Source of the DNA: Acinetobacter lwoffii
Lineage (GTDB): Bacteria > Pseudomonadota > Gammaproteobacteria > Pseudomonadales > Moraxellaceae
Length of the DNA: 64,000 nt
NCBI RefSeq assembly: GCF_019343495.1
Contig: NZ_CP072550.1
Span: 186,001 to 250,000, forward strand
Direction of reading: 5' to 3'
In this document: positions 25,244-49,097 of the stretch, piece by piece
How the letters are laid out: each line of letters opens with the position of its first letter
How positions within the stretch are numbered: the stretch's first letter is position 1
Notes under the pieces: model-generated
The model's database searches: none
What the model saw: only the letters and a program-made list of their open reading frames with translations
What the model was told of the DNA's origin: nothing
Program-made: the position numbers and the translations under genes

Positions 25244-26884
25244 ATGACTGAAGAAATAAATAGTAATGAAAAAAAAGATGGTCCTATTACGGATGTAGGT
25301 AAAAAGTTTGCTGGTGCACGTAAAGACAACCCATCACCAGACTTCTCAGGCAACATGAATGGAATTAAGTCTGACAGCCTAGTGACTAAAAAGGAATATT
25401 GGCAAAAGCCTGATTTTAGAGCTGATGCCCAATCTGGCCATAAACCTGTAAAACATGCACTATTATTTTCTTTGGTCTATGCAAACTTAACCAACAAGCC
25501 TTTAGGGGGCGGTTGGTTTAGCATAGGTCAAAAGCAATGGGATGATGCCTACATTGCTACGCTACACTTCTTAAAAAACAAATATGAAAGCTCACACTAC
25601 GAACGTTTAGAACAACTGACAGACGACTTTAATGCGTACATGACCGTTAAGTTTGGTGCTGGACGAAGTGAAAAAGATATTTTAGAACGCTACTCAGCTG
25701 GACGACATACCAATCGCAGAGTTAAACACCCACTATCATTTAGTTCAGACACACGTTTACGCTTAAAAAACTTAATCCCTTTAGGATGGCCAGACGATCG
25801 TGTACTTGATACGGATAATTATGGTGCCAAAAAATTATTAAACACTGAGACTGGTCAACATAAGTGGTATGCCGTTAAATCCATTTCAGCAAAGCGGTTT
25901 CAAACACTAGATGATTGGACGGAATACGACACATTCAATGCAGCACTAGAAAAAGTAAAAACATTTTTTCAGCCAATTTTAGATGAACGAGTCATAGAAC
26001 CCAAAAAAGGACGCGCAAAACCACCCAAAAGACCGCGCTACGACAGAGTTGAAGTGCGCGAGGGTAAGGACCATCGAAAGGGTGAAAACATCGATAGCCA
26101 GTTGCTTATGGACTATTTCAAATTTTCTGGAGTCGAGTTCGGCAATTGGGTAAATCAAAAGGAACGTGCATGGTTTCTGAATTGCACGTATGACTCACTA
26201 ATGGATCTTGTCGAACTTCTAGGTCTACCCGTTACGTTCGCATCTTTAGGCGGTAAGCTAGGAATAGCATTCGGTTCGCGTGGCACAGGCGTTGATAGCG
26301 CAGCAGCTCACTTTGAACCAGGTAATATGCTTATTCATTTGACCAAGACGCAAGGTGTTGGAGCACTAGCCCATGAGTTCGCGCACGGATTTGATTGTGT
26401 TTTGGCAAAACGAAACGGACTCAATAATAACTTTTTTAGCGAATACTTTCTTTACACCAGTAAAGGGCGTTACTCAGTACAGAATCATCAAGAGTCAGCA
26501 TACAAACATCTTAAAGATGGCCAGACTGCAGATAAGTTTATCAAGCTGGTTAATTATCTTACTTTTAAGTCAACCAAATACCTTGATTACGAAGAAAGAC
26601 AAGGCGGTACGGGCTTTATGAATAACGCCATGCACCTAGATCAATCACGGTCAATGTATTGGTCACAGCCAACAGAAATCTTTGCCAGACTGTTTGAATG
26701 TTGGGTGACGGATAAGCTGGCTGAAAATGATCAACAAAATGGGTTTTTGGTGCACGGCACAGAAGAGTCGGCAAATAGTTGGAATATGAAGTTAAGCGCA
26801 TATCCAACAGGCAGAGAACGGGCAATTTTAGTTGATTTGATGGATGATTGGCTAAAAGCATTAGTGAGGTCGTGGACGAAATGA
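25244..26884 (+). CDS. LPD1-domain (large polyvalent protein-associated) putative metallopeptidase
   Basis: 546 residues from the ATG at 25244. Residues ~295-400 match the LPD1 domain: GVEFGNWVNQKERAWFLN, then a GGKLGIAFGSRGTG stretch and the zinc-peptidase motif HEFAH at 377-381. A downstream SQPTEIFARLFE is typical of the family. The N-terminal GKKFAGARKD segment is also common in such proteins. LPD1 domains occur in giant polyvalent proteins of conjugative elements and phages that are thought to travel with DNA and act on host targets. Here it is a stand-alone protein. The peptidase motif looks intact; the substrate is unknown. The gene overlaps the next one by 4 bp. Confidence 0.85.
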   Translation: MTEEINSNEKKDGPITDVGKKFAGARKDNPSPDFSGNMNGIKSDSLVTKKEYWQKPDFRADAQSGHKPVKHALLFSLVYANLTNKPLGGGWFSIGQKQWDDAYIATLHFLKNKYESSHYERLEQLTDDFNAYMTVKFGAGRSEKDILERYSAGRHTNRRVKHPLSFSSDTRLRLKNLIPLGWPDDRVLDTDNYGAKKLLNTETGQHKWYAVKSISAKRFQTLDDWTEYDTFNAALEKVKTFFQPILDERVIEPKKGRAKPPKRPRYDRVEVREGKDHRKGENIDSQLLMDYFKFSGVEFGNWVNQKERAWFLNCTYDSLMDLVELLGLPVTFASLGGKLGIAFGSRGTGVDSAAAHFEPGNMLIHLTKTQGVGALAHEFAHGFDCVLAKRNGLNNNFFSEYFLYTSKGRYSVQNHQESAYKHLKDGQTADKFIKLVNYLTFKSTKYLDYEERQGGTGFMNNAMHLDQSRSMYWSQPTEIFARLFECWVTDKLAENDQQNGFLVHGTEESANSWNMKLSAYPTGRERAILVDLMDDWLKALVRSWTK

Positions 26885-27919: not shown

Positions 27920-28530
27920 ACGCACGAACGCAACCAGTGACATTACATGTGTCGTCAATGACAGCTTATGTGTCTCGAACGTGCACGTAATTTTGGATTG
28001 ATTGGTTTGAATGCAGAAAATGTAAATTATGCAAAGTAACACCATGAATATAGCTGATGATTGTACGGTAGTACGTAGACCGTATCAAAGAATGACGACA
28101 GCTAACATGCTTAAGATTTGTTATAATAAACAAATTGTTAGTATCTAAACGACACATGAGCTGTCATTTTTTGGAAATTGCGACTACCCTATTCATTTTA
28201 ATTCGAACTTTAACTTATGTTCACCTGAAGTCTAGTTAATAAAACTTTTAATAATTTTATTTATTATTTTCAATAACTTATATAAATAAAAAAATAATTA
28301 TAAATTTTTGGTTCATGAACCTAATGAATTTATTGATACTTTTATAAAATAGAGTTAATTTGTCCGAGAGATATGGGTAGATATCTATTTTTGGTCTTTT
28401 TAGTGATTAGAGATATGACCATTGTCATCAAATTTTAAGGAATTCCTTAAGTTTTTTTCTTATAATTCAATAAAATAATTTTGAATACTCAAAAATTAAA
28501 TGTAATATAAGTCACATTATGAACCGTTAA
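27920..28530. other. 600-bp AT-rich non-coding region
   Basis: No convincing gene. The left third contains a 212-bp segment bounded by an 18-bp inverted repeat (listed separately). The rest (28170-28530) is extremely AT-rich with scattered stops in all frames. It marks the junction between backbone and defence island. Confidence 0.6.
27957..28168. repeat. 212-bp segment with 18-bp terminal inverted repeats
   Basis: AATGACAGCTTATGTGTC (27957-27974) and GACACATGAGCTGTCATT (28151-28168) are inverted with one mismatch. A related half-site TGACATTACATGTGTCG lies just upstream of the left arm. The size and ends resemble a non-autonomous element or two recombinase sites in opposite orientation. No target duplication is evident. 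Confidence 0.6.
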
Positions 28531-28740
28531 GTGAAATACGTTTTGCTTAAACGAATGATTGAGTTAGATCATCTAAATGATGATCGTGCTAGAAGACTCA
28601 GGTTTTACACCAAAATATTTGGCAGACTTTATTTTAAATACAATCCTAAACTGAATATAAAAAACCTTCGGAGGGCTTATTTGGCCAAACTAACCATCAA
28701 CCTGAAAAAACTAAATTCTTACGCTAAGTATTTTTTCTAA
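28531..28740 (+). CDS. small basic protein (doubtful)
   Basis: 69 residues from a GTG at 28531, strongly basic (Lys/Arg-rich) with several tyrosines. No ribosome binding site or family is recognised. It could be a small nucleic-acid-binding protein preceding the defence operon, or a chance frame in AT-rich DNA. I lean slightly toward chance. Confidence 0.25.
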   Translation: MKYVLLKRMIELDHLNDDRARRLRFYTKIFGRLYFKYNPKLNIKNLRRAYLAKLTINLKKLNSYAKYFF

Positions 28741-28852
28741 AAGACACCGTACATATAGCATTACTTTATGTTAATAAAAATTTAGCATCATTTTTGACGC
28801 TTATTTGTTGTATGTGCAAAAGCAAGACATTTTAAATAAAGAATCTTTTAAT

Positions 28853-31800
28853 ATGAAAGTTACATATCCAGAGACAGGTATATACGAGCACGAACTCAAA
28901 GCAATTGATAAGATTAAAAAGGTCTTTGATCGTGGCGAAAAAACTAAAAACTGGCGAGCATATGCTGGTTTTGAATTTATGCATAAAAATGGAAAAAAAG
29001 CAGTAGCGAAAGGTAGTTCTGAGAAATTTGAATATGATCTCCTAATTATTACTCATGCAAACATTTTGGTCATTGAATTCAAGGACTGGAACGGTAAGGA
29101 AATTACAAAAGTTGCAGGAAAATGGTACGTAGGTAATAAAGAGCAAGATTCATGCCCTGTAGCTAAAAATGTAAAAAAAATGCAAATTATAGTTAATAAA
29201 CTAAAGGATAAAGTTTCAGAAAAGAAAGCTAAGGGCATTACATTTCATTACCAAAGTGTTTCTCACTTTGTTGTCATGTGTGGTAAAGCAGATTATTCGC
29301 GCCTGCCTCCAGAAGATTTAGAGCACATTCTTTCGATAGATGAGTTTATACAATTAGCTCAACAGAAGAATTTTAATAATATGTTCCGCAAGCATCTGGA
29401 ACGTGATGGTCGCATATATGATATTAAAAAAGAATATCACGCCATTATTGATGAAATTTTTGCGCCTGACCAAATTCAACCACGCTCTTTGATTATTAAT
29501 AATCATGAACGAGGTGACTTGATCTTACCGCATCCTAAAAAGATTTATAGCGAGTATAAAGCGCATTCATTGACCATCGTTGGTGAAAAATCTTTAATGC
29601 GTTGTTGGGATTTTAATGAATTCAAGTTGAGTAACTCAAGAATGAGTCAGCCTCAACATCGATTCAACTTGATCTGCAATGAGCGCCGGGTTTTCCAAAA
29701 AATTAAAACAGAAAAGCCTGATCTTTATCAAAGTTGTTTGCACCCGATTACAAACCCAAGTCTTGATGACATGACATCAAAATATAATGAGTTGTATGAG
29801 TTGCCTGAGAACAGCTATCGAGTCAACGAATTCATCGGCGCTTATGCTGAGAAAATGTCTGAATCTGAGAAATTGGATTTATTCCAGATTTTGCTTGGTA
29901 AATTTAATCACCTACATCAAATGGGAATTACTCATGGTGATGTGGGTGATCATAGTGTGTGGATCTCTTATAAAAAGGAGATATTGCTATCCAATTTTTC
30001 GGCAGCAAATGATCAAACACAGCCCTCGAAAATTGACCCTGAACTGGCTAACGAACTCCCATTTTTGAATACAACAGCTCATCTTCCGAATCTTGCGCTG
30101 ACAGCTGCACAAAAGGATGTGTATTGGTTAGGGCAGTTAATCCTTCATATTTGGAAGAATGCTCGACTGAGCCCACGTTCATTGAAAAAATTTAGTCTTG
30201 AGGAGCGAGATCAGAACCACTGGTTAGAGCGTATTTTAACACGAGCTTTGACAGGGAAATATGATAATGCATGTGCAGTATTCCAAGATTTCTTAGCTCA
30301 AAAACCTGCTGAACAAGTTAGTTATGAACTTGATGCAGATGTACTGAATCCATATTTAAATCAGACAAATACCTATATCAGTTACCCGATATTTGGCGCG
30401 CCTATTGATGCTAACCAAAATTTTACACTCTATGCATCAGGCAACATGTTAGTCAAAACATGGATGGGTAAAGTTGCATCTGCAATGACAACTTATCAAA
30501 AGAGTTGTTTTAAGCGATTCTTTGAAGAACTTAAAATGACGCAGGCTCTCAATTTGCCATACCTTCCTAAGATTATTGATTTTGGTTTATCAACTAGCAC
30601 AGCATGTGTGTATCTAGTAACTGAAATGGTAAAGGGTGAAGCTTGGTCAACGGTTATTGAGGGCTTAACTGAGGATGAAAAAAATGAACTTTCACTTCAG
30701 TTATTGCATTCTCTGAAAAAATTTCATGAGCATGGCTTTCAACATGGAAACTTGGATGATGAAAAGATTCTAGTAGATAAAACAAACTTGAAAGTTAGTT
30801 TTAATGATTGCTTCCATCCTGAAGTACCACAACCTGATTCTTCTAATGCTTATTTCCCATCTGATATTGAAGATCCAACAGTCATTCAGTGTGACAACTT
30901 TACTGCATTGAAATTAATCGCAGATCTATACGATATAGACTTGGCTGTGGATGATGTGGCTTCAATGGATCCTACTTTATCCTGGCTAAATACAGCCTTG
31001 AGCATAGAAGGAATGGAAGATCCAAGTGTACGCTATATTGATAATTCTCGCTTTATAGAGGCATTTGAATGTAAGGGTGCTATTGTAAAAGAAGCTCCTC
31101 AGATTAGTATTTATACAAGTAAGGTTGAGACGCCCTTTACGATTTATCCCGAAAACGGCAAAGTTTATATCCAACTTGAGGCAGCAAGTGAGGGGGATTT
31201 TCGATTTACACTTAGCGGAATCAATGGCATGTTAAAAGGGTTTTATAAGCCCCATGAAAATCAATTAAGTTTCCTTGATTTTGTCAAAAAACAAGACCTG
31301 TGGTGGAAGGCTAGTAGGGATGCAGATCTGACTATTGATGTTAGCATTGAAGTCCACCCGATATCTGGGATGAGTAAGCGTGACAACATTGTAGAGTTAA
31401 ATGACTTCTTAGCAAAAGATCAAAACTTTAAGGATGCTATTGAACAGTTTAAGCAAGCACAGCTCAAAAGGACTCAAGAGAAAGAGGAAACATTACGGGC
31501 TCTGCGTGAACAAAAAGCATTACAAGAAGAGATAGGCGATGTTATAGCTACTGATGAGCTTATGGCACAGCCAATGAGTCATCTGCCTACACATAGCCAC
31601 TTAATTGATATTGAAACGAAAGAGTTGTGGAAAAAAGTCATGGCGACTGAGCGTCATGCACATCCTACAATCACTCTGTCTGAGCCGTTAAAGATAGTTT
31701 CGAGCAAACATTTTAAAGATTCAAAGAGTGCTATTGCATACTATGACTCTGCAGAAGATGTTTCAGCTAAATTTTCAAAGACCGATAAAGTCGATGTAAT

Positions 31801-34039
31801 GTGCACTAAAGAAACTGGGGCGGGAGGTGATTACACTTTCTGCATAGGTACGGTGAATATTGCGCAATCAAAAGTCGGAGAATTGTGGATCGATTTTTGT
31901 AAAAAAACAAATGAAGTTCCTGAAGAAGCAACACTGTTTCTACAAAGCAAGGCAGATAAGTCATCTAATCGGAAACGTGCAGATGCTCTGACAAATATTC
32001 TGAGTAATAAGGCTGTCATTGAAAATCTCGTAGATTACTTTGAACCATCATTAGTGATTGAAGCAAAAGATTATGAGATTGAAGTGCCTGATGAAGATCT
32101 AGATCACTATAACAAATACAAAAATGGGGAATTGGTTAAAGCCCTCAATCCATTACAACGTAAAGCGTTCCGTAATGTGCTTAAGTATGGACCTGTATCA
32201 CTATTAAAGGGACCACCAGGAACCGGCAAAACTGAATTTATCTCTATACTGGCTCACTATCTCTATGATAAACAAAATGTATCTAACATCTTAATTGTTA
32301 GTCAGTCGCACGAAGCTGTAAATACAAGTGTTGAGCGTATACGTCAGCTATGCACAGAGTATGACACACCATTAAGTATTGCTCGAATAAGCAATAAAGA
32401 GAGTGCTGTGTCTCCTGAATTAAAAGATGTCTATACAGGCTCAATTATTACGAGCCAGATAGAGCTGTTTAAGTCTAATATTAAAGAAAGAGTGCTTGAG
32501 CTTGCAAAAGATTTATCACTTGAAGCTGAATACTTGAGCGATCTTTATGAAATCAGAGTCACTATTTTAAATAGTCTTAAATCTGCGTATCAGTCAATCG
32601 ACCAAGATGATCTTGATCAAAAGTTTAGCTTCTCATTAGAAGAGTATACCCAGGCTTTCAAATCAGCAATGCATAAGCTGAAGAGCATGTTTGACGGAAA
32701 TCAAGACTTTTGGGATCAACTGGAAGACTGTATCAATGATAAAGAGATAACAGTATTAAACCAGTTAAATAAGATCGACATGATTACGTTCGCAGCACTT
32801 AATCAATACTACGGGGTATCTAATGAGGAAGGACTTAAAGCGAAAGCCTTGATCAATATTGCCCTAGATTATGAACCATTAATTGAAAGCCAAAATGCTA
32901 ATTATGAAAGTTTCCTGGTCAAAACAAGGCAATTAGTCTGTGGCACATGCGTTGGTGTTGGCCAACAAAGTATTGGAATCGCCAATCACGTATTTGATTG
33001 GGTGATTATTGATGAAGCAGCACGTTCAATCGCTTCAGAATTGGCAATTGCAATGCAGTCAGGTGCACGTATTTTATTAGTTGGGGATCAAGACCAACTT
33101 CCTCCACTATATTCGAGCGATCATAAAAAGGCTTTAGCTAAGCAACTTAAGATATCAGATGATGATTTGGAAGATAAATTACAAAGCGACTTTGGCCGTA
33201 TCTTTAATTCACATTATGGACTAAAGGCTAGTTCAGAACTCTTGTCACAGTACCGAATGAGTCCGAGCATCGGCGAATTAGTTTCAGACTGTTTTTATGA
33301 AGGAAAACTTGAAACTGAAGTTGTCGATTCTCGTGGTTTAAGTGATGAAGAGCTGAAAGAAATTAAGTTAAAGCGGATTGTGCCTGATAACTATGCATCC
33401 GACATCGCAATAGAATTGAATTCAACAGTTACTTGGGTGGATACTGGGAATGCTGAGCATTTCAAAATGGAGAAAGGTAGTAGTATTTATAACCCACATG
33501 AAATTAATGAAATTATCGATTTTCTTCAGCGGATTGACCAAGACAAACTCTTGTTAAATAAATTAGTGCCAGAGCCTGATTCCCTTAAAGAGCCTGCTAT
33601 TGGTGTAATTTGTACCTATGCTGAGCAAAAAAACCGGTTAAGAAAAGCCTTCTCTTTGTGTGAAGTGTCAGATGCATTGAGATCAATTGTGCGTATTGAT
33701 ACGGTGGATAGTTATCAAGGTAAACAGAATAAGATCATCATTCTCTCAGTTACGCGAAATGATCCAACTAAGTTTCCTGCATTTTTGAAGTCACCAAATC
33801 GTGTGAACGTGGCTTTATCTCGCGCAATGGATCGTCTTGTAATCTTTGGTGCGTCAGAAATGTGGCAAGGAGTCAACAGTAACTTACCTTTAGGACGCGT
33901 ATTAAATTACATCAAGTGCCGTGAGAATCAGACTTTAGAATATCGATATATTTCAAAACGCGCCATTGTCAAAATAGTACAAAACAATCCGCACATTAAT
34001 AAAAATAGATCAAAAAAATATAGAAAGGCAGGGGTATAA
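28853..34039 (+). CDS. NERD nuclease-tandem pseudokinase-SF1 helicase fusion, candidate antiphage protein
   Basis: 1728 residues from the ATG at 28853 (AAAGAA upstream; an earlier TTG at 28805 is less likely). Residues ~10-110 form a NERD nuclease domain with D62 and EFK at 75-77. Two kinase-like folds follow. The first has HGD at 361-363 in place of HRD and an NFS in place of DFG. The second has HGN at 631-633, with the catalytic Asp changed to Asn. A coiled region (~850-900) precedes a Upf1/Dna2-type SF1 helicase: Walker A GPPGTGKT at 1120-1127, DEAA at 1387-1390, then QYRMSPSIGEL and the late motifs VDSYQGKQ and VNVALSRA. NERD plus kinase is the architecture of PglW/BrxW in Pgl/BREX, but here it is fused to a helicase. 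The partner gene follows 3 bp later. A defence role is inferred. Confidence 0.85.
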   Translation: MKVTYPETGIYEHELKAIDKIKKVFDRGEKTKNWRAYAGFEFMHKNGKKAVAKGSSEKFEYDLLIITHANILVIEFKDWNGKEITKVAGKWYVGNKEQDSCPVAKNVKKMQIIVNKLKDKVSEKKAKGITFHYQSVSHFVVMCGKADYSRLPPEDLEHILSIDEFIQLAQQKNFNNMFRKHLERDGRIYDIKKEYHAIIDEIFAPDQIQPRSLIINNHERGDLILPHPKKIYSEYKAHSLTIVGEKSLMRCWDFNEFKLSNSRMSQPQHRFNLICNERRVFQKIKTEKPDLYQSCLHPITNPSLDDMTSKYNELYELPENSYRVNEFIGAYAEKMSESEKLDLFQILLGKFNHLHQMGITHGDVGDHSVWISYKKEILLSNFSAANDQTQPSKIDPELANELPFLNTTAHLPNLALTAAQKDVYWLGQLILHIWKNARLSPRSLKKFSLEERDQNHWLERILTRALTGKYDNACAVFQDFLAQKPAEQVSYELDADVLNPYLNQTNTYISYPIFGAPIDANQNFTLYASGNMLVKTWMGKVASAMTTYQKSCFKRFFEELKMTQALNLPYLPKIIDFGLSTSTACVYLVTEMVKGEAWSTVIEGLTEDEKNELSLQLLHSLKKFHEHGFQHGNLDDEKILVDKTNLKVSFNDCFHPEVPQPDSSNAYFPSDIEDPTVIQCDNFTALKLIADLYDIDLAVDDVASMDPTLSWLNTALSIEGMEDPSVRYIDNSRFIEAFECKGAIVKEAPQISIYTSKVETPFTIYPENGKVYIQLEAASEGDFRFTLSGINGMLKGFYKPHENQLSFLDFVKKQDLWWKASRDADLTIDVSIEVHPISGMSKRDNIVELNDFLAKDQNFKDAIEQFKQAQLKRTQEKEETLRALREQKALQEEIGDVIATDELMAQPMSHLPTHSHLIDIETKELWKKVMATERHAHPTITLSEPLKIVSSKHFKDSKSAIAYYDSAEDVSAKFSKTDKVDVMCTKETGAGGDYTFCIGTVNIAQSKVGELWIDFCKKTNEVPEEATLFLQSKADKSSNRKRADALTNILSNKAVIENLVDYFEPSLVIEAKDYEIEVPDEDLDHYNKYKNGELVKALNPLQRKAFRNVLKYGPVSLLKGPPGTGKTEFISILAHYLYDKQNVSNILIVSQSHEAVNTSVERIRQLCTEYDTPLSIARISNKESAVSPELKDVYTGSIITSQIELFKSNIKERVLELAKDLSLEAEYLSDLYEIRVTILNSLKSAYQSIDQDDLDQKFSFSLEEYTQAFKSAMHKLKSMFDGNQDFWDQLEDCINDKEITVLNQLNKIDMITFAALNQYYGVSNEEGLKAKALINIALDYEPLIESQNANYESFLVKTRQLVCGTCVGVGQQSIGIANHVFDWVIIDEAARSIASELAIAMQSGARILLVGDQDQLPPLYSSDHKKALAKQLKISDDDLEDKLQSDFGRIFNSHYGLKASSELLSQYRMSPSIGELVSDCFYEGKLETEVVDSRGLSDEELKEIKLKRIVPDNYASDIAIELNSTVTWVDTGNAEHFKMEKGSSIYNPHEINEIIDFLQRIDQDKLLLNKLVPEPDSLKEPAIGVICTYAEQKNRLRKAFSLCEVSDALRSIVRIDTVDSYQGKQNKIIILSVTRNDPTKFPAFLKSPNRVNVALSRAMDRLVIFGASEMWQGVNSNLPLGRVLNYIKCRENQTLEYRYISKRAIVKIVQNNPHINKNRSKKYRKAGV

Positions 34040-34042
34040 CTC

Positions 34043-35419
34043 ATGGAAAATTCACTAAGAAGCTATCATGACGTAGATGTTACATTGCCATCACAACTAT
34101 TCAATGTGGCATTTAGCTATACCACAACAGATACCTTAGATTTTATTGATTCTATGGTATTGCGCCTATTGGTAATTGCACCACTTTCTGCTGAAAAAAT
34201 AGCGCGGTTCTTAGGGTTATCTAATCATGAAACAGATGTGCTATTAACTAAATTATTAAAACAAATGCAGATAAAACATCTTGAAGATGATCGATTTGCT
34301 CTGACTCAGCGACTTGAGAAAGCATTCTCGGATGTTTGTGCAATTCCTTATGTAAATAAGATTGAGGACAATATTCAAAAGATGAGTTTTGAGATGATTG
34401 GCTTGAATCCTGAGCCAGTTAATCCCAACGCATCTGACAATGGGGCAAATTCAATTAAATTAGATGCTTCTAACCAATACCTTTCAAATGGTGAGTCTTT
34501 GGTTAGTAAGGAGTTTCAGAAAAATTTTCGATTTTATTTCAGCCAAGGATTAGTTAAGTTGAATCCATCAGTGGATGAAAAGAAGCTGCAACTGTATAAA
34601 ATGAGCCAAGTGGAAAAATTGCGAGACCATTCTCGTCGTTTTACATTACCATTGACGCTTGATGAGAATTATACACCTACAGAGATTAGTGATTTTAATC
34701 ACATGGAAAATCTTAACAAAATCGAAGATTCTCTTTACGCTGCTCTTAGATCAGCTAAGAAGCCACAAAATATTGAGGATATTCTAAAGGTACTCCATGA
34801 ATTAGATATGGAGGATACTTTTTCAGTTGAATCTATTTTTAGCGAGAATAAGCTTAATTTAGATCGCTTATTTAAGCTAGAACACAAATCCAATGAATAC
34901 TTTATCGGGCCAATATATTCTAAGGAAAATTCAGACCTGTTTTTCAAAACAATCAAACAATATCAAGACCAGAATAATGATGATAAACAGCTGTATTGGT
35001 TAGCTCCATCAGATGAATTTTGGGGTAAGTCAGATAGATTTAGTGATTTTATTGATCGTTTATCGACAACCACAATTACCAAAAACTTTAAATGCTTCTT
35101 ACCAGTGGCATACAGAAATGATAAACAATCAATCGCAAGTTATAAAAAACTAATCACAGCTGAGGCAGGAGCCAAGCACTTTCTAACGTTTAAGGAAAGT
35201 AGTGTAGTTTTTGACGGTAATTTTGAGCTTTTGGTTATGAAAGACTCTTTTTGTGTTTTGATTATTCACGTTAGTGATTCATCCACAAATATTTTAACAA
35301 CAGTGCCTGTGGGTATTATTGTCAAAAATAAGGCTATTGCCCAATCGTTTTATAAGTTTTTTGAAGACTTAGAGAACGATGGAGAGAACTTCTTTGGTTT
35401 ATTAAATTCTAAAAAATAG
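34043..35419 (+). CDS. partner protein of the NERD-pseudokinase-helicase, winged-helix N-terminus
   Basis: 458 residues from the ATG at 34043, three bases after the upstream stop codon, so the two are coupled. Residues ~35-95 look like a winged helix (LLVIAPLSAEKIARFLGLS, then LLTKLLKQMQIKHLEDDRFALT). The middle (~200-300) is helical. The C-terminal ~170 residues are alpha/beta and end near a Leu/Phe-rich stretch. No catalytic motif is recognised. It may be a DNA-binding or sensor subunit for the large helicase protein. A strong terminator follows, defining a two-gene transcription unit. Confidence 0.8.
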   Translation: MENSLRSYHDVDVTLPSQLFNVAFSYTTTDTLDFIDSMVLRLLVIAPLSAEKIARFLGLSNHETDVLLTKLLKQMQIKHLEDDRFALTQRLEKAFSDVCAIPYVNKIEDNIQKMSFEMIGLNPEPVNPNASDNGANSIKLDASNQYLSNGESLVSKEFQKNFRFYFSQGLVKLNPSVDEKKLQLYKMSQVEKLRDHSRRFTLPLTLDENYTPTEISDFNHMENLNKIEDSLYAALRSAKKPQNIEDILKVLHELDMEDTFSVESIFSENKLNLDRLFKLEHKSNEYFIGPIYSKENSDLFFKTIKQYQDQNNDDKQLYWLAPSDEFWGKSDRFSDFIDRLSTTTITKNFKCFLPVAYRNDKQSIASYKKLITAEAGAKHFLTFKESSVVFDGNFELLVMKDSFCVLIIHVSDSSTNILTTVPVGIIVKNKAIAQSFYKFFEDLENDGENFFGLLNSKK

Positions 35420-35431
35420 AATAATCATCTT

Positions 35432-35462
35432 AAAAAGCTAGCAGATTTGCTAGCTTTTTTAA
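35432..35462 (+). terminator. Rho-independent terminator of the two-gene defence operon
   Basis: AAAAAGCTAGCA, loop GATT, TGCTAGCTTTTTT, twelve bases after the stop codon at 35419. Confidence 0.9.
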
Positions 35463-35512
35463 ACTCAAATTAGAGTGGCAACAATCCAGACCAGACATTT
35501 CTACTTTGAAGT

Positions 35513-36551
35513 GGCTTTGTTGCACAAAGATTTGAAATGCAAAGCGCCCCTAATTGAGCCAAATTTAAGGCGTAACTTGGGTAAGTGGTCGACCTAATTC
35601 CGTAAATCTGTTAAGGACTGCTACACGTGCATGGATCTCATTCACTTGGCTATCAAAACTCCTTGCACTGAGTTTATCTCCTAATAATTTGATGCAATGC
35701 ATCTTAGTTTCAACCAAACTTCGCCGATGATAGCCTGACCATTTTTTCCATAGTGTCCTGCCTAAACGTTTAATTGTTCGAAGTAATTCATTTCGCTCTA
35801 GCGAGCTACTCTTTGTATCTTTCCATGGTTTCGCATTTTTTCTAGGTGGAATCACCGCATGCGCTTGCCGATCTGCAATGACCTGACGGCATTGCTTGGT
35901 GTCATAAGCCCCATCGGTATAAACAGAGTCAATCCGCTCATCTTGTGGAATCTGATTAAGTAAATCACCAAGCACCTGTGAATCACTGACATTATTGGTT
36001 GTAAGCTGAACTGCTCGTATTTGTAGGGTTTTAGCATCTATACCAATATGAAGTTTACGCCATTGGCGACGATATTCAGGTCCATGTTTCTTGCGTTTCC
36101 ATTCGCCCTCACCTAGAAACTTCATGCCTGTAGAGTCCATGAGTAGATGCAGCCCATCGCTACTTTTTTGGTAGCTGATTACAATATCAATATGCTTTTG
36201 TCTTCTACAAAGCGTGGTGTAATCTGGAGCTATCCAATTTAATCCGCAAAGTTTAATCAGACTTTGCACAAAGCCAGTGACCATACGTAAAGACAGACGG
36301 AATAAGGATTTAATCATTAAGCAGCATTGGATGGCTGCGTCGGAGTAGGTTTGATTTCGCCCTTGTTTGCCTTTTGATGGCGCATACCATTGCGTAGCAG
36401 GATCAAACCAAATGGCAATATTTCCTCGACTCATGAGTGCTCGGTTATATGCGGGCCAATTGGTTGTGCGGTAGATTTTGTGTGTAGGCTTCTTCATTTG
36501 AAAATTATATCGCTGAAAAACCCTTTACAGATAGGTTTGTGCAACAAAGCC
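35513..36551 (-). mobile_element. IS5-family (IS903-type) element, 1039 bp
   Basis: The terminal inverted repeats begin GGCTTTGTTGCACAAA at both ends. One transposase gene fills it on the minus strand. The flanking 9-mers (CTTTGAAGT and ATTCAGAAT) do not match, so this copy has no target duplication. It may have been involved in a deletion or recombination with another copy that joined the helicase operon to the CBASS block. Confidence 0.9.
35565..36497 (-). CDS. IS5-family transposase
   Basis: 310 residues. The DDE_1/IS903-type domain is intact: an early SRGNIAIWFDP block, the first catalytic Asp in LLMDSTGMKFLGEGEW, the second in VYTDGAYDTKQ, and a terminal YHRRSLVETKMHCIKLLG that carries the glutamate (Y-(2)R-(3)E-(6)K signature). 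The gene fills the element between its terminal repeats. It is probably functional. Related elements are very common in Acinetobacter. Confidence 0.93.
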   Translation of the reverse strand: MKKPTHKIYRTTNWPAYNRALMSRGNIAIWFDPATQWYAPSKGKQGRNQTYSDAAIQCCLMIKSLFRLSLRMVTGFVQSLIKLCGLNWIAPDYTTLCRRQKHIDIVISYQKSSDGLHLLMDSTGMKFLGEGEWKRKKHGPEYRRQWRKLHIGIDAKTLQIRAVQLTTNNVSDSQVLGDLLNQIPQDERIDSVYTDGAYDTKQCRQVIADRQAHAVIPPRKNAKPWKDTKSSSLERNELLRTIKRLGRTLWKKWSGYHRRSLVETKMHCIKLLGDKLSARSFDSQVNEIHARVAVLNRFTELGRPLTQVTP

Positions 36552-36642
36552 ATTCAGAATTGAAATAGAAAAATTTAAAAATAAATAACTTGGAAATAGA
36601 TTTTATGATAAAATTCAATCAGCTATATTAATTTCTACACTT

Positions 36643-37115: not shown

Positions 37116-38747
37116 TTAAATTACAGCGATTTCATTCTTGCTTCCATTATTTCGAATTTGAAGTCTTGGAACCATTGAATTATTTAAGTAATCATAAATA
37201 ACCATTTCAGGATGATGCAGATCAAATGCTTGTCCAAACCATATACAAGCAGCATTGGATGCACATGGTAAGACATGAATTTTGGTAATTCCTTTATCTG
37301 TTAGACTATGAAATAACGCATGAATATCTTGCATGAAACTTAGTCCTCGTTCAGGATTTCTTATTGCTCCATTCCCCATATATTCTGGTTTAGCAGTAAT
37401 GTTAATTACCGGATGTCCTAATTCAACAGCCTTATTTTTAGAGGTTTCTGGATCAGCAGTGAGATTCAATCTAATAGTAATTTCAGTACAATCTTCTATT
37501 TCACTGAAATTATTAATTTCATACGCTTTGGTTGTACATATAAGATCAGGCCACATCCAACAACTTCCATCCCTATACATAAGCATAGGTATAAATTTCC
37601 CTTTATTTCCTAATTTACTTCCTAATGCTATTAGGCATGGCATAGGGCCGAAGCCAAAAATAGCTACTCTCTTATCATCAAATTTAGTTTCCCTAAGTAA
37701 TTGTTCTGTTTGAACTTCAAATTCTTCTAAAAAATACTTTTTATAGAACTCATCAGCTGAAGCTCTTAAATGAGCTGGTAATGGTTCATGAATTAGTGTC
37801 TTATCTTTATGCAAAATAGATTTTAATGGGAGAAGGCAGCTTGCAATATCACGTCGTGAAGGAGACTGAGGAATATTGCGATTCACGGGCCAGAAAAATA
37901 AATACACTGGCATAGGAGTAAAGCTTAAAGAATCTAATAAATCTTCGCATTGTGCTGTGAAATTACTTCTCATTTGCGAGAGTCTTGAAGCTGTATATTC
38001 TGCGCCAGCAACTTTATCAATTAACCTATGATGTTTTTCACATAATAATAAAATATTCGTTGGATCATCTGATAGTTGATATGAGAAGAAGGGGATACCG
38101 CGAGTAGAATTTTCTGATGCTGCAACATTATGAGCTAAAACGCCATATGTACCTTCAAATCCAGTTATTTCATCTATGTTTAATTTTGCACCACATCCTT
38201 TAAACATACATCGGCCATGACTTGAGAGATAAATCTGGTTTTTATCTTTTTCAGATAAATCGTTACCCCTACCTGTAAGATGCTCAAAATCAAAAATTCT
38301 TTTTATGAAATATTCTAATTGGTTTACAGGGTTTGGTTTTTGTTTAGGAATCTTTCTAGGAACAAAATCTACATCTTTAACTTCGCTCTCTTGAGAGGAG
38401 GTTAAATTCCATGTTTCTTTTAACTTTTCAAAATCATGTAGAGTGTGGGCATCAATTATGTGACCTTGAAGAAAGCGTGCATAAATGGAAATTTTTTTGG
38501 CAAGCAATCTTCGGACAAAAGTTAAAGTATCATCATAATTGAGAATTATACGGAAAAAACTTTCAGGGCTTTTATTTTTCAATAAGACAAAAATTATATT
38601 TTTACGTTCTTCATCAACTAATACACCTAATGAATCTATACAAATATGCTTTAAAATTTCTTCTATATATTTATTTGCATTTGATAAATCATCTATTGCT
38701 GATAAAGAAGTCTGTAAACTTAGGGATGGGTCTAGTTGCATTTTCAA
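37116..38747 (-). CDS. cap5: CBASS effector, HNH nuclease-SAVED (Cap5-like) with extra N-terminal domain
   Basis: 543 residues. An HNH endonuclease lies at ~172-250: SSHGRCMFKGCGAKL, a central LAHNVAAS and LLLCEKHHRLID, with zinc-type cysteines. A SAVED domain (~330-540) includes a FGFGPMPCLIALGSKLG stretch and the late NITAKP and IHVLPC strands. In Cap5 proteins the SAVED domain binds the cyclic oligonucleotide made by the CD-NTase and this activates DNA degradation. Typical Cap5 proteins are ~380-420 residues with HNH at the N-terminus. Here ~170 further residues precede it, helical and of unknown role. The start overlaps cap3 by 4 bp. It is the last gene of the CBASS operon. Confidence 0.88.
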   Translation of the reverse strand: MKMQLDPSLSLQTSLSAIDDLSNANKYIEEILKHICIDSLGVLVDEERKNIIFVLLKNKSPESFFRIILNYDDTLTFVRRLLAKKISIYARFLQGHIIDAHTLHDFEKLKETWNLTSSQESEVKDVDFVPRKIPKQKPNPVNQLEYFIKRIFDFEHLTGRGNDLSEKDKNQIYLSSHGRCMFKGCGAKLNIDEITGFEGTYGVLAHNVAASENSTRGIPFFSYQLSDDPTNILLLCEKHHRLIDKVAGAEYTASRLSQMRSNFTAQCEDLLDSLSFTPMPVYLFFWPVNRNIPQSPSRRDIASCLLPLKSILHKDKTLIHEPLPAHLRASADEFYKKYFLEEFEVQTEQLLRETKFDDKRVAIFGFGPMPCLIALGSKLGNKGKFIPMLMYRDGSCWMWPDLICTTKAYEINNFSEIEDCTEITIRLNLTADPETSKNKAVELGHPVINITAKPEYMGNGAIRNPERGLSFMQDIHALFHSLTDKGITKIHVLPCASNAACIWFGQAFDLHHPEMVIYDYLNNSMVPRLQIRNNGSKNEIAVI

Positions 38748-39250
38748 TTTAACTCAATATAACCTAACAGTTTGATTTTAAAATTTTTTCTACCAATCCA
38801 GATTCCAGTTTTTACTCTTCCGATTATTAAATATAAAACTGGGTCATTAAGATTGGTAATGCCATTTAGAACAGTATCTATATCCCTTAAATCGGTTGGA
38901 GAGGGTGTTGGTACATCTTCAGGATGTGTATGCCATAGGCCTTGAAAATTATAGAATTTTTTAGATTCGTTCCAAGCTTGTATTAAAGCATATTGGTGGG
39001 ACTTTGACCTAAAGAAAGACATACGTGTTTGACAGTCTCCTTCCATAGGAGAGGTAAAGCTTTCAATGATTTTAGCTTTAGTTTCTATGTCTGTTCTTCC
39101 AATTAGAATGCCACCCGATTCTGGAGAATCTGATTCTAATTGTATAAATTGCTTTAAACTCTTTAAAACATTTGCTTGAATAATAAAGACTTGGCCTGTA
39201 GGTGTGTCACATTTAATCCTCCCTTGAGTTATGTATTGCAACATGGGCAT
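38744..39250 (-). CDS. cap3: CBASS Cap3, JAMM/MPN isopeptidase
   Basis: 168 residues. The JAMM zinc motif is complete: E44 in SPESGGILIG, then H107-x-H109 (GLWHTHP), S117 and D120 in PSPTDLRD, spaced H-x-H-x7-S-x2-D. In type II CBASS, Cap3 removes the CD-NTase from its conjugated targets, opposing Cap2. The gene overlaps cap2 by 22 bp and the effector gene by 4 bp, so translation is tightly coupled. It is intracellular. Confidence 0.92.
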   Translation of the reverse strand: MPMLQYITQGRIKCDTPTGQVFIIQANVLKSLKQFIQLESDSPESGGILIGRTDIETKAKIIESFTSPMEGDCQTRMSFFRSKSHQYALIQAWNESKKFYNFQGLWHTHPEDVPTPSPTDLRDIDTVLNGITNLNDPVLYLIIGRVKTGIWIGRKNFKIKLLGYIELN

Positions 39251-40887
39251 ACTTCTTTATAAATTTCTTTTAAATTCAATATATTAATTCCATTTGAATT
39301 ATTTACTGAATTATAAAAAGGGGTAGTAATTATTCCATTTTTATTTGCATTCTGATTGTCGCCAGAAATAGAAACAAATCCTAATTGTTGATTCAGGACA
39401 TATTCAGAAATATAGCTTGCTAGCTTCATGCAATTTAAAGAAGAGAAGGGGGTAAATGCACCAGCACACCCTGTAATATTTTTAGCAATTAGCTGTCCAG
39501 ATTGTACATATTTATACATAGGGGTAAGACTTTTATTTGATTTTTCATCAAAATATAAGCAGTTTAAACATCCTACATGTTTATTATTGAAAGAAATAAA
39601 ATGTCCACCTAAATCATAAGGTTCTAACCAGCCTATTATTACTTGAATGTTTGCACTTATTTCATAAATAGTTTTTACGAGAGAAATCTCAGTAGGAGTA
39701 TGGCCAATTGCTATGATGATAGTATCAATATCTTCAGTAATTTTTGATTTTATCCAGCTTTCACCATGGCTTACGAATGGAAAAATAGTTAATCCGGGCC
39801 TTTCTATTAAAAACTTATTAGCTAAAGAAGTAGATTTATAGGTATTAACATACTGCAAACCTAAAGAATGACGATAAATATTATCTGTTTTTAAAAGCTC
39901 TGGATCTATGAAAGAAAATTTATTTACGCCTGTTTGAGCTAATATCTCTGCAATCTTTGAGCCTAAAGCCCCACATCCGATAATCGCTATATGTCTTGTT
40001 TTTTTCTCTTGCCCCGTTCTATTTAATAAATAATCTATCCACGCTCTTTGTGTTAAAGAGACTTTAAAGCCTTTGAAGGATACTTTTTCTTTGAAAGAAT
40101 ACCAAATGGCATAATAAAAAATCACATAAGCAAATCCATGTTCATTTGGAATTCCCACTAGGGCATAATGATTGCCTTGTTTTAACAAAGATCGTTTGTT
40201 CTCATTAGAGAGGGTATTAACAATTTTTAGAAAATAGTCCTCATTAAAATAATCTCCTATATCTGGTATGGGGAAAACAGAAGCATCTTCTAATAATATC
40301 TTATGAATTTTTACTTTTGTGAGCTGGTTGTGGTTTATGTAAGAACTATCGCCATCATCAATATGCTCTAATATTTGATGATTCCCTTTTGATGATTTTC
40401 TTAACCAACCATATAAATTAAATGTAGAAGTAGGGTCGCAATGTAATATTACATCCTCATTTATATTTTGAGTGCTGCCTAAATATCCTTCTAGTTCGTT
40501 ATACAAGCTTACTCGGTTGTTTAATTGAAAATTAATAAAAGATTGCTTGAGTATATCTATAGCCCTTTCAAAGAATTCAGTAATAAGTTCTTTATGTCTA
40601 TAGCCTTCAAAGTTTTCACCTTGATGATCCGTAGTACAAATTTCCCCACTTTGACTCACATGATCTAAGGCAGACATTGGTCGTGTCAATATTCTAAAAA
40701 TGGGAGGTATCGTCCAATTAGCTCTATTTTGAAAAATTAGACCAAGGCAAACCTGTTGTGTATTAATGAGAAAATCAAATTTTAGATTAACCCAATCCTT
40801 AGTAATAGAAGTGACATGGATATTTTGAGCTCCATGTTCACTTAATAGCTTTTCAATATTGTCTAACTTTGGGTTATCAAAAAACAT
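39229..40887 (-). CDS. cap2: CBASS Cap2, E2-E1 ubiquitin-transfer-like protein
   Basis: 552 residues. The N-terminal E2-like domain (~1-160) has its active cysteine at residue 84 in SGEICTTDHQ. A ThiF/E1 adenylation domain follows at ~305-530: RHIAIIGCGALGSKIAEIL, then FIDPELLKTDNIYRH, with the E1 cysteine in the TGCAGAFTPFSS stretch and zinc-type cysteines in LNCLYF and CPCC. Cap2 conjugates the CD-NTase C-terminus to target molecules to prime signal synthesis. The gene starts 9 bp after the CD-NTase gene. All key residues are visible. Confidence 0.92.
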   Translation of the reverse strand: MFFDNPKLDNIEKLLSEHGAQNIHVTSITKDWVNLKFDFLINTQQVCLGLIFQNRANWTIPPIFRILTRPMSALDHVSQSGEICTTDHQGENFEGYRHKELITEFFERAIDILKQSFINFQLNNRVSLYNELEGYLGSTQNINEDVILHCDPTSTFNLYGWLRKSSKGNHQILEHIDDGDSSYINHNQLTKVKIHKILLEDASVFPIPDIGDYFNEDYFLKIVNTLSNENKRSLLKQGNHYALVGIPNEHGFAYVIFYYAIWYSFKEKVSFKGFKVSLTQRAWIDYLLNRTGQEKKTRHIAIIGCGALGSKIAEILAQTGVNKFSFIDPELLKTDNIYRHSLGLQYVNTYKSTSLANKFLIERPGLTIFPFVSHGESWIKSKITEDIDTIIIAIGHTPTEISLVKTIYEISANIQVIIGWLEPYDLGGHFISFNNKHVGCLNCLYFDEKSNKSLTPMYKYVQSGQLIAKNITGCAGAFTPFSSLNCMKLASYISEYVLNQQLGFVSISGDNQNANKNGIITTPFYNSVNNSNGINILNLKEIYKEVCPCCNT

Positions 40888-40896
40888 TGAGTTTTC

Positions 40897-41910
40897 CTAA
40901 GCAGATTTTCCTTCTTGAGTGTAATAAGTTTGTACTACTGGTTCGGACACTTCTTGTATTTCAGGGATAGGGAATTGTCTTCCAAAAGTTTTATTTAAAA
41001 TTTTGCAAGCTTCTACTGTATCAGTTTCCTCATTTACAGCTTCTAAAGATGATTTTAAATCTTCAAGTTTTGATTTTAAGTGCTCCATTTGTTTTCGGGT
41101 CAATTTTTCGAGTAAGTCTACACCTTGATGTGCAGGTAAATTAATTACGAGTCTGAAGTAATACTCGTTATTTTCTGGATCAATGCTAAAGGTAGTGAAT
41201 TGATCTAATACATTATTTACTATAGAAAGTAATACCTTATTATCATTCTCATAATCTTCAGCTGTTATATGCTCATATACAGCTGTAGTGATAGCAATAC
41301 TCTTAAAAAAATCTAGACCTTTCTCATTTCGCCATTGTTTCAAGTAGCGAGTACATCGTCTAAACTGATGACGTAAATCTGAATCATCTTCAAATTTTCC
41401 CAAAATTGTATCGGTAAGTTCAGTAGGATTTGAAATATCCCAAGTCTTAAGGTCTTCAGAGGAGAATTCCTTACCTCGAGCTAGATACATATTGCCTTTG
41501 TCGTCTTCAGCGTAGATGGGCAGATCTACATGATAATCGGGACTACCATTTTTGAGATAAGTGACAGTTACGCAAGGTCGTTTGATCGTTACAGTTCTAT
41601 TTGAATGAGTTAAAGCATCTCTAACAATTTTTTTAATTTCTACTGAGCCATATTCCTCTTTGTCACAATCTAATAAAACTCCTACATCAATATCATAATC
41701 TCCATTCTTAGGCTTAATCCCTGTGCCCAAGGCATAACTACCTTGATTAAAGTATTCAACAAATTGAGGACCATTTGGATCCTTTTTGAGTTCATCTTTT
41801 AAGGTGCTAATCAAAAGGTCACGTTTTTCACGTAATGTACTTTCTTCGTCATAACGACCTAATCGAATATTTGTGTGGAACTTAGCATAGTGTTTTTGTG
41901 GATTCGCCAT
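40897..41910 (-). CDS. CBASS CD-NTase (cyclic oligonucleotide synthase)
   Basis: 337 residues. The nucleotidyltransferase motif is GSYALGT at 57-63, then D73 and D75 in DYDIDV, with the third acidic residue D129 in YHVDLPIY. An OAS-like helical domain follows. The protein ends in EGKSA, a short flexible tail as needed for Cap2-mediated conjugation. It is the first gene of the operon cdn-cap2-cap3-effector, which defines type II CBASS. On phage infection it should make a cyclic di- or trinucleotide that activates the HNH-SAVED effector. I do not assign the clade or the product from sequence alone. GGAGATCC lies ~35 bp upstream; the binding site before the ATG is weak. Confidence 0.92.
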   Translation of the reverse strand: MANPQKHYAKFHTNIRLGRYDEESTLREKRDLLISTLKDELKKDPNGPQFVEYFNQGSYALGTGIKPKNGDYDIDVGVLLDCDKEEYGSVEIKKIVRDALTHSNRTVTIKRPCVTVTYLKNGSPDYHVDLPIYAEDDKGNMYLARGKEFSSEDLKTWDISNPTELTDTILGKFEDDSDLRHQFRRCTRYLKQWRNEKGLDFFKSIAITTAVYEHITAEDYENDNKVLLSIVNNVLDQFTTFSIDPENNEYYFRLVINLPAHQGVDLLEKLTRKQMEHLKSKLEDLKSSLEAVNEETDTVEACKILNKTFGRQFPIPEIQEVSEPVVQTYYTQEGKSA

Positions 41911-44489: not shown

Positions 44490-45704
44490 ATGACCACCAC
44501 ACGCCCCGCGTGGGCCTATACGCTGCCGGCAGCACTGCTGCTGATGGCTCCTTTCGACATCCTCGCTTCACTGGCGATGGATATTTATCTCCCTGTCGTT
44601 CCAGCGATGCCCGGCATCCTGAACACGACGCCCGCTATGATCCAACTCACGTTGAGCCTCTATATGGTGATGCTCGGCGTGGGCCAGGTGATTTTTGGTC
44701 CGCTCTCAGACAGAATCGGGCGACGGCCAATTCTACTTGCGGGCGCAACGGCTTTCGTCATTGCGTCTCTGGGAGCAGCTTGGTCTTCAACTGCACCGGC
44801 CTTTGTCGCTTTCCGTCTACTTCAAGCAGTGGGCGCGTCGGCCATGCTGGTGGCGACGTTCGCGACGGTTCGCGACGTTTATGCCAACCGTCCTGAGGGT
44901 GTCGTCATCTACGGCCTTTTCAGTTCGATGCTGGCGTTCGTGCCTGCGCTCGGCCCTATCGCCGGAGTATTGATCGGCGAGTTCTTGGGATGGCAGGCGA
45001 TATTCATTACTTTGGCTATACTGGCGATGCTCGCACTCCTAAATGCGGGTTTCAGGTGGCACGAAACCCGCCCTCTGGATCAAGTCAAGACGCGCCGATC
45101 TGTCTTGCCGATCTTCGCGAGTCCGGCTTTTTGGGTTTACACTGTCGGCTTTAGCGCCGGTATGGGCACCTACTTCGTCTTCTTCTCGACGGCTCCCCGT
45201 GTGCTCATAGGCCAAGCGGAATATTCCGAGATCGGATTCAGCTTTGCCTTCGCCACTGTCGCGCTTGTAATGATCGTGACAACCCGTTTCGCGAAGTCCT
45301 TTGTCGCCAGATGGGGCATCGCAGGATGCGTGGCGCGTGGGATGGCGTTGCTTGTTTGCGGAGCGGTCCTGTTGGGGATCGGCGAACTTTACGGCTCGCC
45401 GTCATTCCTCACCTTCATCCTACCGATGTGGGTTGTCGCGGTCGGTATTGTCTTCACGGTGTCCGTTACCGCGAACGGCGCTTTGGCAGAGTTCGACGAC
45501 ATCGCGGGATCAGCGGTCGCGTTCTACTTCTGCGTTCAAAGCCTGATAGTCAGCATTGTCGGGACATTGGCGGTGGCACTTTTAAACGGTGACACAGCGT
45601 GGCCCGTGATCTGTTACGCCACGGCGATGGCGGTACTGGTTTCGTTGGGGCTGGTGCTCCTTCGGCTCCGTGGGGCTGCCACCGAGAAGTCGCCAGTCGT
45701 CTAA
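44490..45704 (+). CDS. floR: florfenicol/chloramphenicol exporter FloR
   Basis: 404 residues, the usual FloR length. It is a 12-TM major facilitator (DHA1) drug/proton antiporter with the family motif GPLSDRIGRRPILL in the loop between TM2 and TM3 and the N-terminal MTTTRPAWAYTL start of FloR. It exports chloramphenicol and florfenicol across the inner membrane. The gene and its flanks are visibly GC-rich compared with the AT-rich plasmid, evidence of recent transfer. It is followed by the lysR remnant that usually accompanies floR. A broken IS3 element lies upstream and an IS6-family element downstream. No ISCR2 rcr gene is present. Confidence 0.96.
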   Translation: MTTTRPAWAYTLPAALLLMAPFDILASLAMDIYLPVVPAMPGILNTTPAMIQLTLSLYMVMLGVGQVIFGPLSDRIGRRPILLAGATAFVIASLGAAWSSTAPAFVAFRLLQAVGASAMLVATFATVRDVYANRPEGVVIYGLFSSMLAFVPALGPIAGVLIGEFLGWQAIFITLAILAMLALLNAGFRWHETRPLDQVKTRRSVLPIFASPAFWVYTVGFSAGMGTYFVFFSTAPRVLIGQAEYSEIGFSFAFATVALVMIVTTRFAKSFVARWGIAGCVARGMALLVCGAVLLGIGELYGSPSFLTFILPMWVVAVGIVFTVSVTANGALAEFDDIAGSAVAFYFCVQSLIVSIVGTLAVALLNGDTAWPVICYATAMAVLVSLGLVLLRLRGAATEKSPVV

Positions 45705-45758
45705 CCGACGACTGGTAGCAGGCCCGCTCCGATGCGGCGCACTAACCATCGAAACCTC

Positions 45759-45981
45759 GTGAATGTCGGTATCCTGTCTGGCAGGATACCGCTCATTTCC
45801 CTTGTTCAGTTCATCGCCGTCGCCGAGCATCTGAATTTTCGGCATGCGGCCAAGGCACTTGGTATCAGCTAGTCGAGCGTCAGCGCGCGTGTGAAAGCGC
45901 TGGAGGATAACCTTGGTGTCCTGCTATTTGAGCGCCATGCGCGGGGCGTTCGGCTAACAGACGCAGGCAGGCACTTCATGG
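45759..45981 (+). pseudogene. lysR-family regulator remnant downstream of floR
   Basis: The N-terminal helix-turn-helix of a LysR regulator is readable (LVQFIAVAEHLNFRHAAKAL, then SSVSARVKALEDNLGVLLFE). There is an in-frame TAG at 45870-45872, and the gene is cut at 45982 by the IS6-family element. This broken lysR is a standard companion of floR in ISCR2-derived segments. No function is expected. Confidence 0.85.
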
Positions 45982-47920: not shown

Positions 47921-48013
47921 CTCTAATTTATATCCAGTCCATGATGGTAAAAACCATCATAAACTAGACATTTTTATTGGTGAGAATATAGACACTTTAA
48001 ATGGTTTCTAACA
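46802..48013 (-). mobile_element. IS1202-family element, 3' end lost to IS6 insertion
   Basis: The remaining end, read inward, starts TGTTAGAAACCATTTAAAG, followed by a second motif AAAAATGTCTAG like those in the complete IS1202-family copies here. It ends exactly 5 bp before a pdif XerC half-site (48019). The distal end is replaced by the IS6-family element. Confidence 0.85.
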
Positions 48014-48018
48014 AGGTT

Positions 48019-48046
48019 ACTTCACATAAGAAATTTTATGTTAAAT
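48019..48046 (+). promoter_or_regulatory. pdif site 1 (XerC-XerD orientation)
   Basis: XerC half ACTTCACATAA, spacer GAAATT, XerD half TTATGTTAAAT. It lies on the mph(E) side of the mph(E)-msr(E) module. The XerC half is degenerate relative to the usual ATTTCGTATAA. Confidence 0.85.
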
Positions 48047-48157
48047 GATTGTTAGAAATGCCCCTTGATCGAGGCATTTTCTATAAAGAATACTAAAAAC
48101 TAATTAAAGCCAACCAAGTTTCAAAACAAGGCAGTTCTCAGCAATCATATTTTTAAA

Positions 48158-49042: not shown

Positions 49043-49097
49043 TTTTAATTTCCTTTAAAGAGTTCAATAATTAATGTTCGGATTAGATTGGCTATCA

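Follow-up and report, generated by a model that had tools for sequence, protein, structure and literature searches.

A Mokosh type I operon on Acinetobacter plasmids, and NERD and PLD as what look like alternative nucleases on one helicase core

Two adjacent genes, mkoA and mkoB, were analysed in a 64,000-nucleotide stretch of Acinetobacter lwoffii DNA (the window: bases 186001-250000 of the 250,175-base contig NZ_CP072550.1, from a genome of 3.53 Mb in six contigs). Judged by profile matches, the pair is Mokosh type I, an already named phage-defence system. Both open reading frames (ORFs) were confirmed, three bases apart, and mkoB is followed by a terminator hairpin of -15 kcal/mol (z -4.69; none of 200 shuffles was equally good), which a pattern scan had missed. 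Of the features proposed by the first-pass annotation, which had been made from the sequence alone, the two-gene unit is confirmed and the terminator supported. The start of mkoA has alternatives: the longest ORF begins at 28805 (TTG), and in a near-identical plasmid copy the annotated gene starts at the base corresponding to 28814. Features are collected in Table 1.

Table 1. Mokosh type I genes and domains, followed by neighbouring features, in window coordinates.
Feature	Coordinates	Strand	Description
mkoA	28853-34039	+	1728 aa: NERD, kinase-like 1, kinase-like 2, UPF1-like SF1 helicase; PADLOC MkoA PDLC03921, Pfam
NERD nuclease domain of MkoA	28937-29224	+	residues 29-124; PF08378, 35.7 bits; D62, E75, K77 invariant
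Kinase-like domain 1 of MkoA	29483-30313	+	residues about 211-487; HGD retained, Ser380 in place of DFG Asp
Kinase-like domain 2 of MkoA	30410-31072	+	residues about 520-740; K535, D652 kept; catalytic Asp replaced by Asn633
SF1 UPF1-like helicase of MkoA	32144-33856	+	residues 1098-1668; PF13086, PF13087; core motif residues present
mkoB	34043-35419	+	458 aa: winged helix and HKD-less PLD-like domain; PADLOC MkoB PDLC03923
Winged helix of MkoB	34106-34348	+	residues 22-102
PLD-like domain of MkoB	34892-35377	+	residues about 284-445; AF2 model, Foldseek PLD family matches; no HxK; E395 invariant
Terminator hairpin 3' of mkoB	35432-35459	+	fold z -4.69
IS5-family transposase	35565-36497		between mkoB and CBASS; named ISAba12 in annotated plasmid copy
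CBASS type II operon (not part of Mokosh)	37116-41910	-	SAVED-HNH effector, Cap3 JAB, Cap2 E1-E2, cyclase; PADLOC 734.6, 249.3, 303.7, 379.9 bits
FloR efflux gene	44490-45704		about 2.6 kb beyond CBASS operon
Mph(E)	48158-49042		
Msr-family ABC-F gene	49098-50573		
CLCA_X-matching ORF	25244-26884		upstream of mkoA; 143.8 bits, under cut-off 260; LPD1 domain protein in plasmid copies

MkoA scored 1675 bits against the PADLOC model PDLC03921 (residues 1-1705) and MkoB 316 bits against PDLC03923 (residues 2-454), in each case over nearly the full model. The operon is assigned to Mokosh type I because both adjacent genes match the type I models full-length, which also rules out an unnamed new system. 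The first-pass reading as a defence system is supported; its statement that the architecture was not one it could name is not, and the claim to novelty fails, this architecture having a name already. Mokosh type I is described in one printed passage as a helicase, a kinase and a separate PLD nuclease (PMC11672841), and its entry in a review table gives NERD (PF08378) and a PLD-like domain (PMC10952713); another passage, citing others, states that Mokosh degrades viral transcripts (PMC11291487). The helicase of these descriptions is present in MkoA as a UPF1-like helicase of superfamily 1 (SF1; COG1112 in print, here Pfam AAA_11/AAA_12 with core motif residues). The serine-threonine kinase fold is there as well, without the catalytic residues. 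For the PLD nuclease, an HKD protein encoded by a separate gene, only a PLD-like fold was found, with no HxK motif and no PLD Pfam match. The sequences depart in two respects from what is printed: MkoB of what is called below the NERD subtype has no HKD, and the kinases of the Acinetobacter clade lack catalytic residues. No title or abstract on a dead PLD, a dead kinase or a nuclease swap in Mokosh was found in the literature searched, whose coverage did not extend to the original Mokosh paper.

The N-terminal domain of MkoA matches Pfam NERD at 35.7 bits (cut-off 22.1), and E60, D62, E75 and K77 are invariant in 115/115 aligned MkoA homologues. The alignment contains 115 of the 120 listed proteins (of 652 MkoA matches), which are those nearest to the window and not a sample of the whole family. 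At the other end of the protein, AAA_11 and AAA_12 (PF13086 and PF13087) match at 131.7 and 124.8 bits, and helicase motifs I, Ia, II, III, IV, V and VI all have their core residues, which are likewise invariant in all 115. The first-pass assignments of a NERD nuclease with D62 and E75-x-K77 and of a complete Upf1-type helicase are therefore both upheld. The PDB chains closest to MkoA by phmmer are the NAM7/UPF1 and SEN1 helicases, and no Mokosh protein was among the chains found in this search.

Two kinase-like domains lie between NERD and the helicase. The Pfam protein kinase model (PF00069) matches MkoA at 43.5 bits (cut-off 31.7), best over residues 549-648. In the window protein kinase 1 reads HGD...SNF and kinase 2 reads HGN...FND, so that both are degraded, as the first-pass annotation had it; among the 115 homologues this holds without exception for kinase 1 alone, which never has the DFG Asp, whereas the catalytic Asp of kinase 2 is kept in 95 and absent in 20. 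These 20 make up a single clade that includes the window and is set apart by one branch with 100% support in the SH-aLRT (Shimodaira-Hasegawa-like approximate likelihood ratio test), in a tree of 53 of the 115 rows (the first 21 plus every third of all). The Asp is replaced in this clade by N, H or R, and a sub-branch with an A. baumannii protein reads IGR. The loss is old, since it is common to sequences that are only 36-84% identical to the window protein. Because kinase 2 of the window clade also lacks its catalytic Asp, neither kinase of this clade is expected to phosphorylate in the usual way; nucleotide binding by kinase 2 may persist, given that K535 and D652 are kept. The persistence of the cassette in a clade without a motif-intact kinase argues for the kinases being folded switches or scaffolds. 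In a kinase-led system, kinase 2 would instead phosphorylate or AMPylate a target non-canonically and serve as the main effector or trigger. The invariance of K535 and D652 and the 95 homologues with a catalytic Asp are in keeping with such a system, but it is unlikely, as the entire window clade, the IGR sub-branch included, lacks the catalytic Asp with NERD and helicase residues untouched.

MkoB had been described as a winged-helix partner. The AlphaFold2 (AF2) model does contain a winged helix, but the protein has in addition a C-terminal PLD-like domain, matched by Foldseek to the PLD family (Nuc, NucT and PLD3), which rules out a plain winged-helix regulator. TrmBL2, the top Foldseek match, was set aside at a root-mean-square deviation (rmsd) of 19 Å, and the one match in a PDB search with the MkoB profile (E 0.13) was taken as chance. 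No HxK occurs anywhere in the window MkoB, which also has no PLD Pfam match. An HxK of any kind is absent from 16 of the 61 NERD-subtype MkoB homologues, the window among them. Apart from a string at residue 307, considered below, HxK strings were seen at residue 153 in 11, at 437 in seven and at other places in one or two, and in one row (P0130) an HLK at residue 387 comes near the expected HKD region.

These features bear on the possibility that the locus is ordinary Mokosh type I as printed, with MkoB an active PLD-type nuclease of unusual catalytic residues and NERD only binding nucleic acid. The PLD-like fold of the C-terminus would fit, as would five residues in it that are invariant in 61/61 homologues (W319, P322, D324, G392 and E395), the HxK at residue 307 found in 31 of the 61, and the naming of PLD as the nuclease in a printed passage (PMC11672841). 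We nevertheless consider an active MkoB doubtful. The window protein has no HxK; the 307 string, which in the model follows closely on a helix, is absent in 30/61 and shows no Asp at the HKD spacing in the strings displayed; and the NERD catalytic residues never vary in the MkoA alignment.

A second PADLOC model pair (MkoA PDLC03920 and MkoB PDLC03922) has a shorter MkoA and a longer MkoB, and is labelled the PLD subtype here. Seven distinct PLD-subtype pairs (L070, L071, L175, L178, L179, L081 and L083) were set against 14 NERD-subtype pairs (window, L003-L006, L074-L076 and L180-L185, with L074 and L075 of one genus). L176 and L177 have the same MkoB as L175 (585 and 583 of 585 residues) and were neither counted separately nor part of the Pfam scan. 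Left out of the pair counts were L073 (partial MkoA match), L072 (contig ends at MkoA) and L009 (mkoA stops short close to a contig end). In all seven PLD-subtype pairs MkoA is without NERD, and MkoB (585-671 aa) is PLDc_2-positive with two HxK motifs; two H[AGLS]K strings were present in 312 of 10,000 shuffled PLD-subtype MkoB sequences. NERD was found in MkoA of all 14 NERD-subtype pairs (in L074, on a separate upstream ORF), each time together with an HKD-less MkoB. PLD Pfam matches were absent from the nine of these MkoB proteins that were scanned, L004, L005, L006, L074 and L183 being checked by alignment only, and none of the 14 has an HxK opposite either PLD-subtype HxK. Residues vary at the N-lobe place, and at the C-lobe place the alignment has a gap beside a conserved GN-x-E or similar segment. 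The kinase-like domain of the PLD subtype is also degenerate, because the places of the catalytic and DFG Asp are altered: of the five domains displayed, four have S, N or A after HR where D is expected (L179 was not captured here), and all five have SGF, GGF or TGF at the DFG place. In the NERD subtype kinase 1 is degenerate at DFG in 14/14 pairs and kinase 2 keeps the catalytic Asp in 12/14, all but the window and L006. A frame change in the NERD region splits the mkoA gene of L074 (L074:3034-7973), and the same-genus copy in L075 is whole.

Three profile searches covered related genomes. A contig scan with the non-NERD MkoA alignment gave 80 loci (216 relatives, the best 80 being kept), most of which matched in the helicase part only; L081 and L083 were taken further. 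An MkoA profile search matched 87/96 genomes and 13/14 controls, nearly always as a partial kinase or helicase, with MkoA called at seven places (six of about 1603 model positions, one cut at 1222). A search of the 96 relatives for PLD-subtype MkoB returned nothing, controls included, and is hence no proof of absence; the matches of a separate search, by appearance mostly other PLD proteins, were not used.

As NERD pairs with an HKD-less MkoB in the sampled pairs, and a NERD-less MkoA with a two-HxK MkoB, the helicase core seems to be served by either of two nucleases, NERD or PLD. The explanation that we favour, with a probability of roughly 0.6 for the whole, is that the locus encodes a NERD-subtype Mokosh type I system in which NERD and the helicase would be the working parts and the kinases and PLD-like domain would be non-catalytic. 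Beyond the membership, domain order, residue conservation and NERD/HKD pairing that the sequences show, a working model can be proposed of how the parts assemble, sense phage and switch on the nuclease, and of what is cut. In it MkoA and MkoB most likely associate in a complex. The pseudokinase, the UPF1-like helicase and the MkoB winged helix would attach to phage nucleic acid and travel along it at the expense of ATP; this core, common to both subtypes, is the probable sensor and motor. Recognition would release the NERD nuclease of MkoA, of PD-(D/E)xK type, to cut nucleic acid, probably DNA. The PLD-like domain of an MkoB without HKD would act as a binding or regulatory part, the NERD-pseudokinase-kinase cassette having presumably been fused to the Mokosh core in replacement of PLD chemistry. 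On balance Mokosh type I probably comes in two nuclease-swapped forms, one with a two-lobed PLD MkoB and a NERD-less MkoA, the other with a PglW/DndF-like cassette fused to MkoA and a dead PLD serving as a binding domain; the Acinetobacter clade would also have lost the sole motif-intact kinase and would run without phosphorylation or PLD chemistry.

Several observations weigh against this explanation. The NERD Pfam match is modest at 35.7 bits. The superpositions of the PLD-like domain are loose (rmsd 6-8 Å against Nuc, NucT and PLD3; template-modelling score by target up to 0.58), and the VIA-align of MkoB is taken up by the winged helix and says little on the PLD part. The HxK at residue 307 recurs in about half of the MkoB homologues (31/61), although not in the window protein. 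The exact residue exchange at the C-lobe HxK is not fixed by the alignment, because the aligner puts the PLD-subtype motif opposite a gap. With K535 and D652 of kinase 2 kept in 115/115, a nucleotide-dependent role may persist. The separation of the subtypes is complete in the sampled pairs, yet these belong to two clades and were mostly found with subtype-specific models, so that the NERD/HKD pairing may represent one event and the pairs are no statistical sample.

If the swap is true, part of annotated Mokosh type I cuts with NERD and not with PLD, and the PLD and kinase parts of the NERD subtype are not to be assumed enzymes. The swap would also connect Mokosh with the NERD-kinase cassette found in type 2 BREX and Dnd, and the loss seen in the Acinetobacter clade would serve as a natural experiment to show if kinase activity is required by that cassette at all.

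The operon is mobile and shared by many plasmids. The stretch 28000-36600 is 99.8-99.9% identical to large plasmids among the 20 matches listed, and 557 of the 558 records with any match to it are Acinetobacter. At a minimum identity of 99%, mkoA was found in 58 plasmid records (55 covering at least 80%) and mkoB in 60 (56 covering at least 80%), all of them Acinetobacter. Some copies are damaged: mkoA is annotated in several pieces without an insertion sequence (IS) in 14 of the 58 records and is IS-interrupted in three (H245, H246 and H271), and mkoB is reduced to 105 bases in three plasmid records. Such copies are what a decaying plasmid locus that has lost its defence function would leave. 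Decay is, in our judgement, very unlikely for the operon described here, as the operon is whole in the window, no erosion of NERD and helicase residues is seen across the clade, the kinase loss is old by the identity range given above, and nine of the 14 split records come from one accession series (CP119xxx) and may reflect sequencing errors. An MkoA relative with 36% identity over 99% of the query is encoded on two contigs (H101 and H102) that bear the name Acinetobacter phage MD-2021a; it may represent a Mokosh carried by a prophage or satellite.

The complete CBASS operon reported beside mkoAB in the first-pass annotation was recovered as four PADLOC gene matches, comprising the cyclase, E1-E2, JAB and effector genes of type II; NCBIfam scores lie below the cut-offs for cGAS (112.8 of 150) and Cap3 (89.5 of 200). 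CBASS accompanies mkoB on 41/56 plasmids, each gene being covered to at least 80%. Other plasmid copies have an IS66 or IS21 element in the mkoB-CBASS interval instead of the IS5-family transposase. On plasmid pRIVM_C011601_1 (L033:21117-24700) a group II intron gene and an IS3-like element interrupt CBASS, leaving a short SAVED coding sequence as the only CBASS annotation of the region; mkoA and mkoB are annotated whole. With the resistance genes at 44490-50573, beyond CBASS, the plasmid carries defence and resistance functions together. Directly upstream of mkoAB, two other genomes have a BrxL-like gene (L003:6580-7893 and L005:7-1407), and Mokosh may therefore end BREX loci there. The CBASS and BrxL-like neighbours both speak for the favoured explanation.

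The order NERD, pseudokinase, kinase in the window MkoA is the same as that reported for some DndF proteins and for PglW, a component of type 2 BREX/Pgl (PMC12839542, whose main text does not contain the word Mokosh); the SF1 helicase C-terminus sets MkoA apart, not being reported for PglW/DndF in the passages cited. The PADLOC PglW model matches the window MkoA at 41 bits over residues 11-390 and a kinase-intact homologue of E. coli type at 92.8 bits. NCBIfam BREX_PglW scores 40.7 bits on MkoA against a cut-off of 990, far from a full-length PglW match. Consistent with the first-pass statement that no Pgl or BREX methylase, phosphatase or protease lies nearby, the PADLOC scan, which was confined to 26 window proteins, showed none of the partner genes (PglX, PglZ, BrxC etc.), the weak PglW match to the NERD-kinase part of MkoA being the sole trace. 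The score and the lack of partners among these 26 proteins rule out a PglW/BREX component. The NCBIfam model of the MADS kinase MAD6 matches MkoA residues 52-439 at 92.7 bits, far under its cut-off of 460, and the match to this 612-position model stops short of the helicase, ruling out a MADS component. Among the nearest known systems are also the two PADLOC pairs. With PDLC03920 + PDLC03922 the operon shares the pseudokinase and helicase core of MkoA, the N-terminal region of MkoB and the gene order, and differs in having NERD in MkoA and a shorter MkoB without the two-HxK PLD. With PDLC03921 + PDLC03923 it shares both genes full-length in the same order, and NERD is listed for type I in the review table entry (PMC10952713); the window clade differs from this pair in lacking the catalytic Asp of kinase 2, which 95/115 aligned homologues keep.

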